Virus record (IMG/VR): IMGVR_UViG_3300028553_000055 | Span: 1-44,312 of that record | Origin: a virus | Length of the DNA: 44,312 nucleotides | Direction: 5' to 3' (one strand) | Part shown: positions 1,879 through 42,458 of the stretch, piece after piece | Position numbering within the stretch: position 1 is the stretch's first letter | Layout: each line of letters begins with the position of its first letter | The notes under the pieces: model-generated | What the model was told of the DNA's origin: nothing | What the model saw: only the letters and a program-made list of their open reading frames with translations | The model's database searches: none | Program-made: the position numbers and the translations under genes

Positions 1879-2238
1879 TTATGCAAAAGTCATACCCATT
1901 ACAAGATTATCATTTATGATTATATCTAATAGTGCGACATCTCTTTCGACACCCTTAAAAAAATTACAAGATGCCTTTACATTGTATGTATTTGAAAGCG
2001 GGCAGTAAGACCTTATTTGCTCTGTTATTATTTCCTCAATCATTGATGCAGATATATTAGTTTCAAATATCATTCTGTTAAGATCAGCTCCAAGTAAATG
2101 AGAACCTAAGACTTCAGTCTTTTCAGTAAAGAGAATTATTTCAATTTGAGTCAAGAGATATTCAAGATCGGTAGTGATCTCTATTTTATCTTCAGTGAAT
2201 CCTGGGTCACCTTCTATTTTAGTATAAAGATCTGCCAT
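1879..2238 (-). CDS. Baseplate wedge protein, gp25/GPW-like
   Basis: The 119-residue product has the length and layout of the GPW/gp25 family, the sheath-initiating wedge component of contractile tails. Features include an N-terminal tract on the tube side, a helix with LLTQIEIILFTEKTEVLG (compare the L-x-T-x-x-G-E-R-x-x-x-P region of gp25), and a C-terminal strand pair ending in a short Phe-Ala tail. Its start overlaps the stop of the ATP-grasp gene as TAATG, implying coupled translation. Confidence 0.85.
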   Translation of the reverse strand: MADLYTKIEGDPGFTEDKIEITTDLEYLLTQIEIILFTEKTEVLGSHLLGADLNRMIFETNISASMIEEIITEQIRSYCPLSNTYNVKASCNFFKGVERDVALLDIIINDNLVMGMTFA

Positions 2239-3740
2239 TATTTTATGAATTCTATTCCATGGTGATTTTTACCTTTACTTTCAGCCGGGTTATAATTAAC
2301 AGGGGCTTCTGTAAGTATAAAAGTTTTTCCAGGGTCTACTGTACAACCTATTCTTTCCATGAAACCTCTATTTGCCAAAAATTTAGTAGACTTTTCAGTT
2401 CTGTCAACCAAAGATATATTAACATCTTTATATAATCTTCCAGCAAATATTATATCAATTTCAATAACAGGTCTTTTTTGAACACTGTCTCCTACCTCAG
2501 GTGTTGAATAGCCTATAAGTTTATTTTTGAAACTTTTATTACCTAGTTTCCAGCTTACTGTTTTCTTCTTTTCATCTACATCAATTTCATCATAAGTTAT
2601 AGAACTGGAAGCACTTCCGTTGCCTGTGTCGAACTTAGCAACCATTTTACCTATACCGGGTACTTCTATAAGTTCTCTATAACCTATTATACTATGATTT
2701 CTTGTCCAATTTTCTTTGTCAGAAATAAATTCAACAATATCTTTTACGATATTTATACCTGTAGCTTCTTTGATACCTTTTGTACCAGGCGAAGAGTTAA
2801 CTTCTAGCACATAGTTGTTTTTATTCTTGTCAACTATAATATCTACACCACACCAGTTGCAACCTGTAGCTTTAGCTGCATCTATTGCAATCTGTTCTTG
2901 TTCCTTTGTTAATTTAACCTTTTCTACAGTTCCTCCTAGCGAATAATTAGTCCTGAAATCCTTTTTAATTTTATTTCTCTTCATTGCACCCAGGATAACA
3001 AAGTCATCTTTTTCAGGTACAGGTGAATTAAATTTTTTACATAGTACATGTATACGCAGGTCATAAGTAGAGTTTATCATCTCCTGTACCATAACTTCTA
3101 TGTTATTAGATACTTTCCAAACAGTCTGTAAAACAGACCTAAGAGACTCTGCTGATTCTATTATTGACACACCTATTCCATGTGAGCCAGAAAGCGTTTT
3201 TAGTATAACAGGAAATTTACCTCCTATTTCTTCGACTGCACTTTCTATATAATTTTCATTTTCGATAATTGCAGATTTTGGCGTAGGCACATCTGCTTCT
3301 ATTAGTTTATTAGATGTAATGTATTTGTTCTCGCAAATCATTATAGATTCAATCGTATTCAAAACAAAAAATCCTGAATTTTCTAATGTCTCTACTAGGT
3401 TTCTTGTGTATGTACTTCTTATTACGCCTCTTCTGGTTAGAATTACAGTATCTTGACCGTTGATAATAAAATCTTTAGTGTTTTCGTCACTTATTATGAA
3501 ATCACCAGTATCTGCTTTACCCTTTTTAAGTTTACAAGAACCAATATTAATTATTTTGTAATCTATACCATTTCTTTTAAACTCTTTTTCAAATTCTTTT
3601 ATACTATATGAGCTACTGTTCATATTAGAAAGCAATACCACTTTCATAGCATCTTCCTTTTTAGCCTCGTTTAACGCATCAGTATTTTTAAATTTCGATG
3701 AATTTAAACTCTCTGTAATATATGTAGTAAATTTTTGCAT
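2238..3740 (-). CDS. RimK-type ATP-grasp ligase fused to a retropepsin-like (RimB/Zn-protease-type) domain, with packaging-type leader
   Basis: Three parts are visible in 500 residues. Residues 1-31 are a leader beginning MQKFTTYITE that resembles the T4 capsid-targeting sequence. Residues 32-345 are a RimK-like ATP-grasp enzyme: a MKVVLLSN start, the ATP-binding loop KTLSGSHGIGV at 181-191, and the metal site VLEVNSSPGTKGI at 311-323. Residues 350-490 carry a DTG motif (D371-T372-G373), matching the aspartic-protease-like domain that accompanies RimK proteins in bacteria. ATP-grasp ligases of this type add amino acids such as glutamate to protein or peptide ends; the partner domain may trim or process. 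The gene sits inside the baseplate operon, two genes from an amidoligase-like protein. Substrate unknown. Confidence 0.85.
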   Translation of the reverse strand: MQKFTTYITESLNSSKFKNTDALNEAKKEDAMKVVLLSNMNSSSYSIKEFEKEFKRNGIDYKIINIGSCKLKKGKADTGDFIISDENTKDFIINGQDTVILTRRGVIRSTYTRNLVETLENSGFFVLNTIESIMICENKYITSNKLIEADVPTPKSAIIENENYIESAVEEIGGKFPVILKTLSGSHGIGVSIIESAESLRSVLQTVWKVSNNIEVMVQEMINSTYDLRIHVLCKKFNSPVPEKDDFVILGAMKRNKIKKDFRTNYSLGGTVEKVKLTKEQEQIAIDAAKATGCNWCGVDIIVDKNKNNYVLEVNSSPGTKGIKEATGINIVKDIVEFISDKENWTRNHSIIGYRELIEVPGIGKMVAKFDTGNGSASSSITYDEIDVDEKKKTVSWKLGNKSFKNKLIGYSTPEVGDSVQKRPVIEIDIIFAGRLYKDVNISLVDRTEKSTKFLANRGFMERIGCTVDPGKTFILTEAPVNYNPAESKGKNHHGIEFIK

Positions 3741-35994: not shown

Positions 35995-36411
35995 TTATAC
36001 CGTGTGTTCTATTTGTACTCTAACACAATTTTGCGGTAAGTGATTTATGTGTCTGAAATTGTTGATGTAGCCCATGATGTTTGCACTGCCAATAGCATTT
36101 GCTGAATGGGTGTACACATCAACAACAGATTGTCCTTCCATCCACTGTTCAACCAACCATTTAGCACAATCATAGCCTGTTTTCTCAGTAATGCTGTTGT
36201 AGTCTAATGTATAGTTGTGATACACATTTTTATGCCATTCCTTCATTGCTGAGTCGCCTAGATCATGGTCTAATGAAATAAAATCGATATTTTCTAAACC
36301 AATTTCATTTACTTTGGCTATGAACTCATCATAGCTTCTTACGACAACCCAATTCTTTTCAACCGGGGTTCTAACGTCGTCTAAATAAATTTTAATTTTA
36401 TTGTCTGTCAT
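35995..36411 (-). CDS. cREC: cyclic-phosphate-processing receiver-like domain
   Basis: 138 residues in the receiver-like family tied to RNA repair: IYLDDVRTPVEKNWVVVRSY at the start, FISLDHDLGD in the centre (the family signature S-L-D-H-D-L-G), TGYDCAKWLVEQW, and HSANAIGSANIMGYINNFR at the end (usual H-S-x-N-x-x-G). These proteins are proposed to handle 2',3'-cyclic phosphate ends left by RNA breaks. Its position one small gene from the RNA ligase supports this. Confidence 0.8.
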   Translation of the reverse strand: MTDNKIKIYLDDVRTPVEKNWVVVRSYDEFIAKVNEIGLENIDFISLDHDLGDSAMKEWHKNVYHNYTLDYNSITEKTGYDCAKWLVEQWMEGQSVVDVYTHSANAIGSANIMGYINNFRHINHLPQNCVRVQIEHTV

Positions 36412-36484: not shown

Positions 36485-36675
36485 TTATCCTTGTGAATAT
36501 CGAACAACGGCCCCACTGTACATCAATGGCTCTAATAGTTTAATATTAAAAGGCCTAGTAATCAGGTGATACCTATTCTTAGTCGGGATAACACTCATAA
36601 GCGGTTCATGGCCTGCTGCAGTTTGAAGTTCTTCAATTTTTGTTCACAGATTTTGTAATAGTCAGTCTTTTTCAT
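36485..36675 (-). pseudogene. Small gene with apparent one-base frameshift at an A run
   Basis: From the ATG at 36675 the frame reads MKKTDYYKICEQ and soon stops. One base added to the run of five A (36637-36641) joins it to a longer frame, KIEELQTAAGHEPLMSV and on to VVRYSQG, ending at 36485, for 63 residues. Either a broken gene, a homopolymer sequencing error, or a slip site. The 330-base gap between cREC and the cassette region holds nothing else I can see. Confidence 0.5.
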
Positions 36676-36739
36676 GTTATAAAGTATTAATAATCAGTCA
36701 GTTGCATAGAGTTGTTTATATATAATAGTTAGGTGCAAT

Positions 36740-37063
36740 TTAGCGACCACGTTTGACCCGATACTTTACTCTTTCAAGTGTTTTAATTTCATCTCTTTTT
36801 AATTTTTGGTAGTATTTATCATCCCAATCTTTTTTCATTGTCCAATTGACGCAGTTTGAAATCAATTGGCTAATATAAGTTTCATCGTAAGCGGTTGCAA
36901 TGCTTTTAAACTTTTCAATATCTGATAATGAAACAATTTCTTTATATTCTTGTGATAGTTCAATTATGTGTTCTATCATATAATTTGGGAAAAAATAAAC
37001 TGCACCTAACACGGTATTGGCAAAATTGCCAGCTTCATCGGTTATTTTAACTTCAATTTTCAT
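36740..37063 (-). CDS. Cassette gene: unknown protein
   Basis: 107 residues, alpha-helical, basic C-terminus (ERVKYRVKRGR). It is the last cassette of the array; GTTAGGT (36728-36734) lies just beyond its stop and reads as a perfect core on that side, but no paired arm follows. Confidence 0.65.
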   Translation of the reverse strand: MKIEVKITDEAGNFANTVLGAVYFFPNYMIEHIIELSQEYKEIVSLSDIEKFKSIATAYDETYISQLISNCVNWTMKKDWDDKYYQKLKRDEIKTLERVKYRVKRGR

Positions 37064-37101
37064 ATCAACTTTTGTTTAAATTTTGAACATTTGTTTTTCA
37101 A

Positions 37102-37134
37102 ATTGGCAACATCGCCAATACTTTTCCGTTAGCA
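37102..37134 (-). repeat. Weak attC-like site
   Basis: ATTGGC/GCCAAT arms (37102-37107 and 37114-37119) beside a GTTAGCA core (37128-37134) that includes the stop of the cassette gene. A second simple core-like TTTGAAC lies at 37082-37088. Too short to be sure. Confidence 0.35.
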
Positions 37135-37323
37135 AACATAAAGCCAACCATCCTCATCAACAGTTACCTTACATTTGCAGTTTATCCCACGAACACCTTC
37201 ATCTAATTTAATTGGATGTGATTTATTCCCGTTGTGGAATATAATTTCAACATAATATGCCGACCATAATCCATCATATTCGTTTGGTATAATCATTGGT
37301 TCTTTTTCTAAACTTTTTGCCAT
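37129..37323 (-). CDS. Cassette gene: unknown small protein
   Basis: 64 residues from MAKSLEKEPMIIPN at 37323. A longer frame from 37365 is rejected because its first 14 codons run through the palindrome arm. The protein has VEIIFHNGNKSHPIKLDE and a CKCKVTVDEDGWLYVC end. Function unknown. Confidence 0.6.
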   Translation of the reverse strand: MAKSLEKEPMIIPNEYDGLWSAYYVEIIFHNGNKSHPIKLDEGVRGINCKCKVTVDEDGWLYVC

Positions 37324-37335
37324 AATAATTACGTT

Positions 37336-37428
37336 TGCTAACAAGCAATATATGTAATTGCCCATTAAGGTTTATACTAATTTGTTAAGTTTCTACATGG
37401 CAACTACATATATTGCCAGACGTTATAG
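37336..37428 (-). repeat. attC-like site (strong palindrome)
   Basis: Arms GCAATATATGTAATTGCC (37345-37362) and GGCAACTACATATATTGC (37399-37416) pair with one mismatch. Outer cores are TGCTAAC and GTTATAG. The loop holds the repeated AAGTTTCTAC motif. This is the best example with arms shared with the site at 38905. Confidence 0.65.
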
Positions 37429-37713
37429 GTAATGCTGAACAAACATATCTACCTTTGCTTTACATTCATGTTTACCTAAAAACTTTTGATACCATACCAT
37501 TTGTTTAGTCTTTGTTTCAATCACAGCAATATCCATAATTAAACCTTCATCACTTCCGTATTCTAATGATTTAATCGCATCGTCAATAGTGTCGTGTTCA
37601 TTGTAACAAGTAACCCCGAATCTATCAAAAATTGAAACAAAAGCACTACCTATAACAACAGGTATATTTAATGCCTGTTTCTGCGCAGTTTTTAACATTT
37701 GTTTATTTTTCAT
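37423..37713 (-). CDS. Cassette gene: unknown protein
   Basis: 96 residues, alpha/beta (IPVVIGSAFVSIFDRFGVTC; DIAVIETKTKQMVWYQK). The stop codon falls inside the attC core at 37422-37428, as often happens in cassettes. Function unknown. Confidence 0.65.
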   Translation of the reverse strand: MKNKQMLKTAQKQALNIPVVIGSAFVSIFDRFGVTCYNEHDTIDDAIKSLEYGSDEGLIMDIAVIETKTKQMVWYQKFLGKHECKAKVDMFVQHYL

Positions 37714-37748
37714 ATTCTCTACTATTTTGAAAGTTTCTACTATTTAAT

Positions 37749-37825
37749 CAGGCACTAAATATACCTGCGACCGTTAGGCGAAAGCACTACCGAACTGCTA
37801 ATCCGATAGTGCCTGCCCGTTAAAT
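37749..37825 (-). repeat. attC-like site, atypical
   Basis: Perfect arms CAGGCACTA (37749-37757) and TAGTGCCTG (37807-37815), with GTTAGGC (37773-37779) inside and GTTAAAT (37819-37825) at the end. Both cores point the same way, unlike a standard site; it may be a composite of two. Confidence 0.5.
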
Positions 37826-38433
37826 TACTTTTTGTCATAGTATTTAAAAACCTTTTCAAGTTGTTTAGGGTCTTTCAATACCGTGTAGTAACATTCTCCA
37901 AAACCATCCTCAATGTAATGCATCCCTCTTTTTTCCGCATCATCTTTTGTAATCGGAACACGAACCACGTCAATATAAAATGTTTTTGGTTTAAATGGAA
38001 ATCTTGCATATTGGCTACTTCCAATCAGTTCAAAATCCTTATCGTCAATGTAAACTCTGCCTGTGAATGTGTCGTGTTCTTCTTCTCCTTTCCAAACAAT
38101 AGCATCATTATAGCTACATTTCCCGTTTTGGTATTTAAACAATCCGCCACATCTTGCATTTTGATACATTGGTTCACCCATCCACTCGGCAACATCAACC
38201 CACTCATTATCGTGTCCTGTTACATCACAAATAGGCTCTTGTAAGCACAATTTTTTTACCGATTGTGCAATGGCTGATGCTGTGTATGGTGCTGAACCAC
38301 CACTTTGTCCTGATTTACCAAATGCTTCACATAAAGCTAAGATTTCTTTAGCGAATGGTGTTACAATCGCATCTGGAACTGTTGCTGCAAGAATATCCAA
38401 CTCTTGCTTTGCAAATTTTTGTGTATTTGTCAT
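37825..38433 (-). CDS. Cassette gene: unknown protein
   Basis: 202 residues, the largest in the array. The N-terminal third is helical (AKQELDILAATVPDAIVTPF), then a beta-rich C-terminal part (DTFTGRVYIDDKDFELIGSS). I recall similar hypothetical proteins in phages but cannot give a function. Confidence 0.65.
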   Translation of the reverse strand: MTNTQKFAKQELDILAATVPDAIVTPFAKEILALCEAFGKSGQSGGSAPYTASAIAQSVKKLCLQEPICDVTGHDNEWVDVAEWMGEPMYQNARCGGLFKYQNGKCSYNDAIVWKGEEEHDTFTGRVYIDDKDFELIGSSQYARFPFKPKTFYIDVVRVPITKDDAEKRGMHYIEDGFGECYYTVLKDPKQLEKVFKYYDKK

Positions 38434-38499
38434 TTTATATATGCGGTTCGCCTTTACACCACAAGGTTTTTAAGTTTCTACTAATTTAACCGTGCCATC

Positions 38500-38631
38500 G
38501 CCTAACATGCGTTTGGCTCAATGGCGGGTTTAGTGGTTAATTCAACATCGTGCCTTGCATCGGCTTTGGTGGTAACTTGAAAGTTTTTCACTCCGAAGTC
38601 CACCACTGCGCCAAGCGCAAACACGTTATGT
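38500..38631 (-). repeat. attC-like site (132 bp)
   Basis: GCCTAAC (38500-38506) and GTTATGT (38625-38631) flank imperfect arms (ATGCGTTTGGCTCAATGGCGG against the complement of CCACCACTGCGCCAAGCGCA, with bulges). Inside is GGTGGTAACTTGAAAGTT, which recurs in the site at 39458. Length and G/C content of the arms fit large attC sites. Confidence 0.65.
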
Positions 38632-38639
38632 GTAATATT

Positions 38640-38849
38640 TTAATTTCCCACCGCACCTGTTTCACCAATAATCGGTGCATCTGGTCGTTCTCCACATTCT
38701 ATAATATTTTTTATTGTCGATTCTCCTTTCACCCCAATAACTTTATCACCATTTTGTAGTTCTTTTGCCTTTAGCCAACCTCGTTCAGTCAATAAAAAAT
38801 GTTCATCACTAAACAACCAGTTTCCGTTTACTTCAATAAATTTTTCCAT
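38640..38849 (-). CDS. Cassette gene: orphan Hint/intein-like small protein
   Basis: 69 residues. SDEHFLLTERGWLKAKELQN followed by GDKVIGV resembles the H-x-x-L-T-x-x-G-W...A-x-x-L...G-D segment of Hint (intein/hedgehog) domains. The usual N-terminal Cys and C-terminal His-Asn are absent, so no splicing is expected. Its attC begins about nine bases after the stop. Confidence 0.55.
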   Translation of the reverse strand: MEKFIEVNGNWLFSDEHFLLTERGWLKAKELQNGDKVIGVKGESTIKNIIECGERPDAPIIGETGAVGN

Positions 38850-38904
38850 TTTATTTCTATTTTTAAGTTAATATTTCCCACGCACAAAAAATTAAAATAC
38901 ATAC

Positions 38905-38998
38905 ACATAACAACAAATATATGTAAGTTTTTATTAAGTTATACGTAAATTTTAAGCATTTGTTACAAAAAACCTACATATATTTGCAACCGTTATAC
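38905..38998 (-). repeat. attC-like site (strong palindrome)
   Basis: Arms CAAATATATGTAAGTTTTT (38914-38932) and AAAAAACCTACATATATTTG (38967-38986) pair with one bulge. Cores ACATAAC and GTTATAC flank them. The AATATATGTA arm is shared with the site at 37336. Confidence 0.65.
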
Positions 38999-39005
38999 AA
39001 CATAA

Positions 39006-39344
39006 TTAAATCCAATCTTCTATAAATTGTTGTAATGTTTGTCCTTTTTTACTATATTCCTTATCAAAATCTTCGTAATAATTACCATCACCATCATCAC
39101 ACCATTCATAAAATTCTAATTTATATGTACCATCTTCTTGTGGTACAATTACCTTAGTTTTATTATCATCTTCATAATAATAAAGACCAGAATTTTTTGA
39201 ATTATCTTGTGTAAATCCGACACTTCGTAAGTATTCAATATCAGATTTTGATAATAACAAATTCCGTTGTATAACACCAGATATATTCAAGTTTTTATCT
39301 GTGTTCTGTTCAAATGTTTTCAAATGTTTAAGTTCCTTTTTCAT
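39006..39344 (-). CDS. Cassette gene with packaging-type leader
   Basis: 112 residues from the ATG at 39344 (MKKELKHLKTFEQNTDKN), a variant of the leader seen on phage-packaged proteins. The body is acidic (EWCDDGDGNYYEDFDKEYSK). A longer frame from 39398 is unlikely because it runs through an AT-rich leader. A leader of phage type on a cassette gene is notable. Confidence 0.6.
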   Translation of the reverse strand: MKKELKHLKTFEQNTDKNLNISGVIQRNLLLSKSDIEYLRSVGFTQDNSKNSGLYYYEDDNKTKVIVPQEDGTYKLEFYEWCDDGDGNYYEDFDKEYSKKGQTLQQFIEDWI

Positions 39345-39457
39345 ATTAAAGTTTATTTGTATATATAAATATTCAGAATTAAATTTTCCACCGCACATTT
39401 TTAAAAAGTTTTTATTCGTGTTTCAAATCAACATTCTACCTTAATAAACCGTACTGT

Positions 39458-39550
39458 GTATAACAAGGTGTATAAGAAAGTTTGCTATCAGCAGTAGTGG
39501 TAATTTGAAAATTCATCAAAGCAAACCTTCTCATACACCCAATCGTTACC
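39458..39550 (-). repeat. attC-like site (strong palindrome)
   Basis: Arms of 20 bases: 39467-39486 and 39520-39539 pair with two mismatches that are G-T pairs on the minus (bottom) strand. Cores GTATAAC (39458-39464) and GTTACC (39545-39550). This is the clearest site. Confidence 0.7.
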
Positions 39551-39557
39551 TGCAAGG

Positions 39558-39920
39558 CTACCTTGACACTCCGATAATAGCATCAGGATATTCTTTACAG
39601 GCTTCTAAATACTTTTCGACAAAAGGAACAAAATGTTCATACATTCCCCATACGTTAGGCGAGTTGAATTTTTCAAAATGTTCAGGTCTTGCTTTTAAAT
39701 CAGCTAATCCTTTTTCAAGCAATTCAACTATTTCACTCGCCTTTGTTTTGCCAATTTCTTCTGGTCGCCAAAGTGCTTCATAAATTCCTGCTTCACGTGC
39801 CATTTTACCTAAGTTATGGGTAATGTTTGCATCGTAAACAGTTTCTTCTTCTTCTGTTAATGTTTTGCCAGCATCGTAGCTAATCCATTTTTTTCGTGTT
39901 AAATAAACATCTAAACTCAT
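39558..39920 (-). CDS. Cassette gene: unknown protein
   Basis: 120 residues, starts MSLDVYLTRKKWISYDAG and is helical after residue 25. Proteins with this start are common in metagenomes as I recall. It is the first cassette; a half-site with CAGGTAAC lies upstream at 39959-39966. Confidence 0.65.
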   Translation of the reverse strand: MSLDVYLTRKKWISYDAGKTLTEEEETVYDANITHNLGKMAREAGIYEALWRPEEIGKTKASEIVELLEKGLADLKARPEHFEKFNSPNVWGMYEHFVPFVEKYLEACKEYPDAIIGVSR

Positions 39921-40020
39921 TTTGTTTCTTTTAAAGTTCCTACTGATAAACCGCCCAGCAGGTAACAGCGGTTTTGCGTCATTGAGGGTTTTTTGCTATC
40001 TATAACCATTTATACTAAAT

Positions 40021-40677
40021 TTATAATTTTTTCTCATGATGGTCTTGAGGCAGTGCAAGCTTTACAATAGGCCTATTTTTCATTAAAGATAATACTTCAT
40101 CTAGTGATATAGGTTTCATGTAATTGCCGTCTACTCCGACATCCATTGCTTTACCTGCTGCTATTCTCTTAGCAGCAGGTAAATGAACATGGCCATGTAA
40201 GTGTACTGCGTTATTGTTCATACCGTCCCAGCTGGCAATTGGAAAATGCATTAGTATAAAATTATACTGGTCCATTTCACCCTTTTTATAAGAACTCGGC
40301 CTTCTGACATCAAGATTAATATAGTGCTGTACGGATGAAAAAAGCCTGCGTACATCATCTTTATTTCTTTCAATATGATGATCGTGGTTGCCTAGGACAA
40401 GATGTATATTTTTACACACGATCTTATTTCTAAACTCTTTTATTTTTTCAAAACCACCAAATGACCAATCACCAAGATGTATTAGTATATCATTTTCACC
40501 GACAGCATCATTAATTGATTCAACGATTACAGAGTTCATGTGGTCCAGTGACTTAAAGTCACGTGTTACATCTTCTGCATTCTCCCACTTGGTAGTTGAT
40601 CTGCAAATATTGCTATGATTATAATGCGTATCGCTTGTAAACCAAAGATGTTGACCTTTTTCTAATAATAGTTTCAT
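40021..40677 (-). CDS. Calcineurin-like metallophosphoesterase (second)
   Basis: 218 residues with SDTHYNHSNI (residues 15-24), IHLGDWSFGG, LGNHDHH, LMHFP and LHGHVHL: the full set of metal blocks. This resembles phage-type phosphoesterases distinct from the copy at 33113. Substrate unknown; it could serve RNA repair with the Rnl5/cREC pair. Confidence 0.9.
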   Translation of the reverse strand: MKLLLEKGQHLWFTSDTHYNHSNICRSTTKWENAEDVTRDFKSLDHMNSVIVESINDAVGENDILIHLGDWSFGGFEKIKEFRNKIVCKNIHLVLGNHDHHIERNKDDVRRLFSSVQHYINLDVRRPSSYKKGEMDQYNFILMHFPIASWDGMNNNAVHLHGHVHLPAAKRIAAGKAMDVGVDGNYMKPISLDEVLSLMKNRPIVKLALPQDHHEKKL

Positions 40678-42368: not shown

Positions 42369-42458
42369 GACGGGATCCAGAGACTCGAACTCTAGACGAC
42401 ATGTTCGCATGTCAACTTACGCTTTAGTAAGCCGTGTATACCAATTCACCAATCCCGT
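42369..42458 (-). tRNA. Class II tRNA, anticodon unclear
   Basis: Acceptor ACGGGAT/ATCCCGT, D-stem GTG/CAC with TTGG loop, a six-bp variable arm GACATG/CATGTC with CGAA loop, and a T-arm TAGAG-TTCGAGT-CTCTG. The anticodon arm is CTTAC-TAAAGC-GTAAG, leaving a six-base loop (or eight if the closing C-G opens), so no standard anticodon can be assigned. No CCA is encoded. The long variable arm points to the Leu/Ser/Tyr class. Confidence 0.75.

Follow-up and report, generated by a model that had tools for sequence, protein, structure and literature searches.

A seven-cassette array in a phage genome very probably belongs to a phage-borne integron with a decayed integrase gene

Results

The window analyzed here is the whole 44,312-nucleotide stretch of virus record IMGVR_UViG_3300028553_000055 (positions 1 to 44,312). 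Between positions 36728 and 39966 its minus strand carries seven units of one gene each, which an earlier note on this DNA had described as an integron-type array of gene cassettes. Both the single direction and the bounds were borne out, the latter exactly to the base: on the attI side the array is bounded by GTTAGGT at 36728, and on the distal side by CAGGTAAC, whose last base is 39966. An attI-like insertion site was observed at 36717-36734, reading TATATATAATAG|TTAGGT on the plus strand and AAC|TATTATATATA on the gene strand.

Cassette 1 (36729-37128) carries a gene of 107 aa (36740-37063) and an attC-like site at 37004-37134 (score 19.2), cassette 2 (37129-37422) an ORF of 78 aa (37129-37365) with a likely start near 37323 and a site at 37336-37428 (20.1), and cassette 3 (37423-37773) a gene of 96 aa (37423-37713) and a site at 37650-37779 (21.5) that was alignable at 71% with one attC of locus L083. 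A Tad3 gene (37825-38433) occupies cassette 4 (37774-38625), with the attC-like site upstream of it at 38500-38631 (18.3); small nested repeats (GTTAAATT.../...AATTTAAC) were also seen in this cassette. Cassette 5 (38626-38992) holds an ORF of 69 aa (38640-38849), with a weak Hint-like match below the Pfam cut-off (PF07591, E 0.0028), and a site at 38905-38998 (21.5). Cassette 6 (38993-39545) has a gene of 130 aa (39006-39398) and a site at 39458-39551 (20.1), and the distal cassette 7 (39546-39966) a gene of 120 aa (39558-39920) matching phrog_4019 (E 1e-16). All of these sites lie on the minus strand, as does a weak candidate at the distal end (39967-39990, GCAAAACCGCT|GTTACC). It is probably one half of a truncated attC, and its best match to known attC right arms covers 14 of 20 bases, a level reached in 8 of 1203 control contexts.

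Sites were scanned with the pattern RYYYAAC, spacer, stem, loop, stem, spacer, GTTRRRY. The four palindromic sites of the earlier note were all present, but its count was too low, as six complete sites were found (37004-37134 and 37650-37779 being the additions), and the arm core AATATATGTA is indeed shared between two of them, at approximately 37346-37355 and 38917-38926. These six scored 18.3 to 21.5. Elsewhere in the window no score exceeded 13.5, and among 30 dinucleotide shuffles the maximum was 16.7. The scan was written after the window sites were known, which leaves the other loci as its independent tests. The R' boxes match GTTRRRY only in part (e.g. GTTATAG, GTTAGCA), and an Rfam search of the window returned no match. 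With six sites the window falls under the definition of a CALIN, i.e. at least two attC sites without an integrase.

Pairing of cassette ends is a stronger test than the site scan and is independent of the palindromes. In all seven units the start paired with the unit's own end over 8 to 10 consecutive bases (10 bp in cassettes 1, 2, 3 and 5, 9 bp in cassettes 4 and 7, and 8 bp in cassette 6), compared with 4 to 6 for non-cognate ends. The cassette start pairs with R'' of its own cassette, as would be expected for a crossover at G|TT, in 7 of 7 window units and in about 25 other phage loci.

No intact tyrosine recombinase was found in the window or in its 71 kb sibling, and to that extent the earlier statement that an integrase is missing holds. 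The start of an integrase gene does persist beside the array, as a minus-strand remnant (36595-36675) with ATG and MKKTDYYKICEQKLK..., beyond which the frame has diverged or been deleted, up to a stop. About the first 15 codons are kept (36675-36631), and these 15 aa are 87% identical to the start of the integrase at locus L080 (E 1e-4), where the same spacing to the array end was observed.

The array ends on AAC|TATTATATATA. About 30 other, non-identical viral contigs carry a phage-borne integron with this sequence as its conserved insertion site, adjoined by a dedicated tyrosine recombinase. These comparison contigs come from metagenomic assembly of uncultivated viruses and are in many cases fragmentary; no close relative of the integrase above 40% identity was found among INPHARED phages, and there is thus no cultured example. 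In about 22 of 27 phage loci the attI motif adjoins the last unit, and its AACTATTATATATA occurs a single time in the window. A position of attI next to the integrase is conserved in the integrase-bearing relatives, the window retaining attI and the remnant only. Two loci (L067 and L068) are identical across 1229 bp from AAC|attI through the integrase, and their cassettes differ: the change falls precisely at AAC|attI, and upstream of that point the two share no homology.

The sites keep a fixed relation to the integrase. An attC was present upstream in 24 of the 24 integrase loci having 900 nt of upstream sequence, and 93 sites in 30 phage loci all had the side and strand expected relative to the integrase; the opposite strand and the opposite side of these loci (147 kb) gave none. 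No site was found in 357 kb of relatives apart from the window's near-identical sibling. Where cassette-end pairing alone predicts a site, palindromes were observed in 49 instances upstream and in none downstream.

The integrase carries the catalytic R..HxxR..H..Y residues of tyrosine recombinases. In comparison with IntI1 and a true IntI of Bacteroidia, the phage and Bacteroidota integrases have no IntI-specific domain around patch III, and the match to TIGR02249 reached 142.9 bits against a cut-off of 265. The structure model was of moderate quality (pLDDT 78), with archaeal Xer proteins as the nearest folds, ranked before IntI4. The integrase is classed as an Xer-like tyrosine recombinase.

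Homology around shared attC bodies ends at AAC on one side and extends at least 60 nt into the downstream gene in 16 cases, compared with at least 30 nt upstream in one; homology of the cassette 6 attC with phage attC sites likewise runs on into the downstream gene. The classical order of a gene followed by its attC, our initial assumption, failed on Tad3, where the site family upstream of the gene is shared but the downstream attC is not, and then failed on the larger test of attC-body homology. The cassette reading of the earlier note was corrected as to order: the genes are inverted, the travelling attC being upstream of its gene, as in 80 of 90 phage units. In 54 of 54 sites the hairpin was more stable when folded from the gene-coding strand, G-T pairs favoured one strand 85 to 10, and the arms pair though their sequence varies. 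A scan that allowed no bulges gave no extrahelical bases within the first 18 bp of the stems.

The Tad3 gene matches Pfam PF25185 over most of the model (E 3.6e-23; 82 bits, cut-off 27) and belongs to an inhibitor family of type I Thoeris, with a predicted anti-defence role. In these phages Tad3 is borne as a mobile cassette: at 81-92% DNA identity it is found again in phage contigs that are otherwise unrelated, have no other window gene in common and differ in GC, and the identity stops at the cassette ends. In G010-G013 and L037, Tad3 is preceded by the same site family as in window cassette 4. A second cassette is common to L066 and G012 from AAC to AAC (90% identity), and attC bodies in different arrays are up to 96% alike. 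A search of the open-access literature, preprints excluded, found no paper on Tad3.

Discussion

Support for an integron-type array in this phage genome comes from the sites, from the pairing of cassette ends and from the finding of the Tad3 cassette in other phage settings. We consider it very probable that these are the cassettes of a phage-borne integron, the integrase gene of which decayed in the window genome. The earlier note suggested that the phage may collect host or environmental cassettes; the array is most likely a decayed copy of an integron of phages with an integrase of its own alongside, and not merely a set of pickups from a host array. Gene order was not found conserved in all relatives: some have the same flanking genes without the array, and contigs with identical integrase and attI hold different cassettes.

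In intact relatives the order is repeated attC-gene units, then attI, then the integrase, on one strand throughout. We infer that the Xer-like recombinase, without the IntI-specific domain, joins attI (TATATATAATAG|TT) to a cassette attC, leading to insertion and removal of cassettes, probably with the gene-coding strand of the attC folded into a hairpin as substrate. One attC and the gene downstream of it make up each cassette; the genes thus face attI and the integrase, and they would be transcribed by phage transcription entering from upstream. The seven cassettes of the window phage would now be fixed, unless a related integrase acts in trans.

Capture of a piece of a host integron array, moved by host IntI with no phage-specific platform, would account for a CALIN. 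Phage CALINs are known, IntI1 can recombine a subset of their attC sites (PMC9892861), and Bacteroidota genomes contain attC sites of the same family. This origin seems quite improbable, given an array end on the attI that phages share beside their own integrase, an integrase remnant in place, a gene orientation opposite to that of the bacterial arrays examined, and a canonical IntI (TIGR02249) in 1 of 395 Bacteroidia genomes. We also find it hard to credit that homologous recombination at conserved palindromes shuffles cassettes between phages, the integrase being incidental: the similarity of attC bodies between arrays could seed such exchange, but L067 and L068 switch at AAC|attI where upstream homology is absent, attC-body homology stops at AAC on one side, and site-specific cassette-end pairing requires a fixed crossover.

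The integrase may instead act on double-stranded dif-like sites in the manner of ordinary Xer proteins, leaving the hairpins uninvolved, which would suit an Xer-like enzyme without the IntI-specific domain; the pairing of arms despite sequence variation, the G-T bias and the 54 same-strand hairpins make this unlikely. That the palindromes serve to terminate transcription between ordinary phage genes can practically be dismissed: they are intergenic and stop codons are close by, but the cassette-end matrix shows each unit's start and end pairing together, the units recur in unrelated contexts, and the site class was found only beside the integrase.

Integrons are usually seen as IntI-run platforms of bacteria and, recently, archaea, and phage integrons as stray fragments. 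If our reading is correct, there exists an integron belonging to phages, with its own integrase and attI, and a counter-defence gene that moves as a cassette among unrelated phages. A search of the open-access literature, preprints excluded, gave no report of a phage-own or Xer-type integron beyond PMC9892861, which is weak evidence of novelty. More tentatively, and at somewhat less than an even chance, large phages, probably of Bacteroidota, and Bacteroidota themselves may share a non-IntI integron lineage, with an Xer-like integrase without I2, hairpin attC sites without extrahelical bases, and strand choice by G-T/A-C asymmetry. Such a lineage would be a possible living intermediate between Xer recombination and classical integrons, its phage branch carrying anti-defence genes in inverted cassettes. 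Escudero et al. 2016 (PMC4792948) described the joint origin of the I2 domain and the attC extrahelical bases as a chicken-and-egg paradox and speculated on a viral origin of integrons; a system apparently without either feature makes the question of origin testable. Very few integrons have been reported in Bacteroidetes from IntI-keyed searches (PMC9024848), a scarcity for which a non-IntI platform would account.

The phage system resembles class 1 and chromosomal integrons in its single-gene cassettes, R''/R' cores, paired cassette ends, attI beside the integrase, preferentially folding strand and tyrosine recombinase catalytic residues. It differs in the missing IntI-specific domain around patch III and in inverted genes, each preceded by its attC, and apparently also in stems without extrahelical bases over their first 18 bp, as far as a scan allowing no bulges can show. 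Qi et al. 2023 (PMC9892861) reported 17 CALINs, and 3 complete integrons, all in temperate phage genomes. Those CALINs are similar in being attC arrays in virulent phage genomes with genes mostly in one direction, but are bacterial integron fragments or integrase-less arrays, whereas the present integrase and attI belong to a phage family itself. In CTXphi, host XerCD acts on a folded single-stranded site without extrahelical bases (PMC4792948); the Xer recombinase and the type of site are alike, but CTXphi itself has neither integrase nor cassettes. Bacteroidota recombinases annotated as 'site-specific tyrosine recombinase/integron integrase' (NF040815-like) have adjacent attC sites (G269, which is locus L150 and has an integrase of 350 aa, and the Chryseobacterium plasmid NZ_CP041688.1, locus L155), and loci with the same sites and a similar integrase were observed on chromosomes and one plasmid. 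In these the integrase faces the array and has an N-terminal extension, and genes stand before their attC in the classical manner, but the attC family is the same, the integrase is 45-51% identical to that of the phages, and the cassette ends pair in the same way.

Cassette array in the virus record

The 44,312-base virus record carries T4-like genes for a baseplate wedge, a DNA ligase and a helicase. Flanked by the genes of a phosphoesterase (40021-40677) and a receiver-domain protein (35995-36411), we observed seven small minus-strand genes separated by imperfect palindromes (36728-39966), as the earlier note had described. The long-arm sites in that note, four in number, were recovered, although the count was revised to six complete attC-like sites, scoring 18.3-21.5 on our own site scanner, which was tuned on the window itself; the next-highest score elsewhere in the window was 13.5, and the top score over 30 shuffles was 16.7. 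The G+C content of the array (33%) equalled that of the remainder of the record. The 69-aa product encoded in cassette 5 (38640-38849) resembled Hint/intein domains weakly, below cut-off (PF07591, E 0.0028). In the window, ARAGORN also reported a tRNA-like gene whose anticodon, aaag, has four bases (42369-42457), and there was a protein matching a phage ribosomal protein S6 glutaminyl transferase-like family (2238-3740; phrog_2599, E 4.7e-22).

In the circular form of an integron cassette the two ends make up a single attC, and so the opening bases of the cassette pair with the R'' box at its other end. When all seven cassette starts in the window were compared with all seven ends, cognate pairs matched over 8-10 consecutive bases and all non-cognate pairs over 4-6. 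Such own-end pairing has no reason in terminators or ordinary intergenic palindromes, and together with cassette movement it bears out the earlier reading of an integron-type array inside a phage genome.

Phage-borne integrase and attI

In the relative G007 (116,881 bases), four attC sites were followed directly by a tyrosine recombinase gene. Proteins related to its product were present in some 40 viral contigs, the majority with 61-88% identity. The integrase-bearing contigs were all uncultivated and metagenomic, at least some with terminase or baseplate genes, and no integrase relative above 40% identity was found among INPHARED phages. Across 30 non-identical loci, 93 attC sites were observed upstream of the integrase on the same strand and none on the other, with none downstream in 147 kb; each of the 24 loci having 900 nt upstream of the integrase contained at least one. 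Defining sites by cassette-end pairing alone, with palindromes not used, gave 49 upstream sites in which 12 or more of the 18 arm positions paired, and none downstream. From these sequences, phages appear to carry their own integron platform, consisting of an attC array, an attI and a dedicated tyrosine recombinase. The largest phage arrays seen, in contigs L090 and L083, had nine attC sites each ahead of the integrase gene.

The motif TATTATATATA or a close variant directly followed the last unit's AAC in about 22 of 27 loci, with the integrase start beyond it, mostly about 50 nt further. The window array ends on this motif, its single occurrence in the window, and at the spacing seen in L080, an integrase-bearing locus, the window reads MKKTDYYKICEQKLK, which is 87% identical to the L080 integrase start before homology is lost. 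Because of this motif and integrase start, the window array appears to occupy the attI of integrase-bearing phages, its own integrase gene being largely deleted. An intact integrase may lie elsewhere in this phage, outside the record. Contigs L067 and L068 were 100% identical over a stretch of 1,229 bp that begins at AAC|attI and includes the integrase, whereas their sequences upstream of AAC|attI were unrelated; this is a natural exchange, and its junction is the one expected of an integron.

Cassette polarity and folding

Among 162 comparisons containing a whole attC body common to two arrays, there were 16 in which identity extended into the gene downstream for at least 60 nt, and one, a related-phage pair, in which it extended upstream for at least 30 nt. 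Because identity extends into the downstream gene, the phage cassette was read as an attC plus the gene after it; the longer reading frame was in this orientation in 80 of 90 phage units. Viewed from attI, the attI/attC geometry is classical and the genes are inverted, read toward attI and the integrase.

The attC sites varied in sequence and kept their pairing. For 54 sites, selected blind to pairing asymmetry and folded with DNA parameters, the gene-coding strand formed the more stable hairpin in every case (mean 3.0 kcal/mol), and G-T pairs outnumbered A-C mismatches on it by 85 to 10; in a wider site set these pairs clustered at stem positions 13-14. In inverted cassettes the role of recombining 'bottom' strand would fall to the gene-coding one, and the integrase, which has the tyrosine-recombinase catalytic residues, would recombine it in folded form with attI at G|TT. 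The enzyme has no IntI-defining insertion, and no extrahelical bases, which are what the IntI domain recognises (PMC4792948), were observed in the first 18 bp of the attC stems, as covered by a scan for stems free of bulges; strand choice may depend instead on the G-T/A-C asymmetry.

Cassette mobility and Tad3

The Tad3 gene of the window (cassette 4, 37774-38625; PF25185, E 3.6e-23) was also observed in viral contigs G010, G011/G012 and G013 (33 to 50% G+C), which have no further gene in common with the window, at 81-92% DNA identity. One edge of the identity block was the cassette-end AAC and the other lay a few bases beyond GTT; cassettes thus bounded appear to move between phages. The earlier note had weighed conserved order of all seven genes in related phages, without cassette exchange, as evidence against an array, and this was not what we found: relatives with the window's flanking genes lacked the array, the phosphoesterase-to-RNA ligase gene distance being about 400 bases in one of them (L001) versus about 4.2 kb in the window.

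Inside its outer ends the Tad3 cassette carries another pair of complementary ends, GTTAAATT / AATTTAAC, and a small hairpin (37774-37830 and 38480-38506), perhaps the trace of an older cassette fusion. No attC was detected adjoining the Tad3 homologues of phage contigs L021, L022, L024 and L026, and the gene therefore exists outside cassettes too. An 8.5-kb Cytophagales MAG contig (L037, DMUD01000285.1) with Tad3 and attC sites in phage-type orientation may stem from a phage and have been wrongly binned with bacterial sequence. The majority of 73 other cassette proteins had no Pfam match; those with one included DNA methyltransferases, a further Tad3, an HNH nuclease and an acetyltransferase. 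Given Tad3 and these methyltransferases, the array may plausibly serve in counter-defence.

Bacterial counterparts and known systems

Related integrases were observed in Bacteroidota chromosomes (353-400 aa, 45-51% identity), at loci whose attC sites look like those of the phages. Unlike the phage enzyme, however, the Bacteroidota integrase points toward the array: 15 of 17 bacterial attC sites were 3' of it on the opposite strand, and five of six units had the classical gene orientation. A Chryseobacterium plasmid (NZ_CP041688.1) shared the chromosomal geometry. The attC arrays of these chromosomes and the plasmid (L150, G269:C20:1-16512; L139, L141, L144, L146, L155) adjoin an Xer-like 'site-specific tyrosine recombinase/integron integrase'. 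Of 395 Bacteroidia genomes, 186 contained relatives of this enzyme, in many cases close to contig ends. These arrays are possibly an unrecognised bacterial integron class. In a tree carrying long-branch warnings, the phage integrases grouped (84/87 support), as did most bacterial ones (98/98), with IntI separate (100/100).

IntegronFinder 2 recorded one complete integron in Bacteroidetes proper (PMC9024848), a number to be expected were its integrase model to depend on the IntI domain. The finding has the cassettes, attC pairing and attI of an integron and departs from one in the IntI domain and gene orientation, and was therefore classed as integron-like. No published report of this phage integron platform was found in the literature searched, preprints being outside its scope. 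A 2023 paper described CALINs in phages, along with a few phage integrons, and IntI1 used five of six attC sites tested (PMC9892861). Those phage arrays had no integrase or a bacterial-integron origin, whereas the platform described here would have the phage's own integrase.
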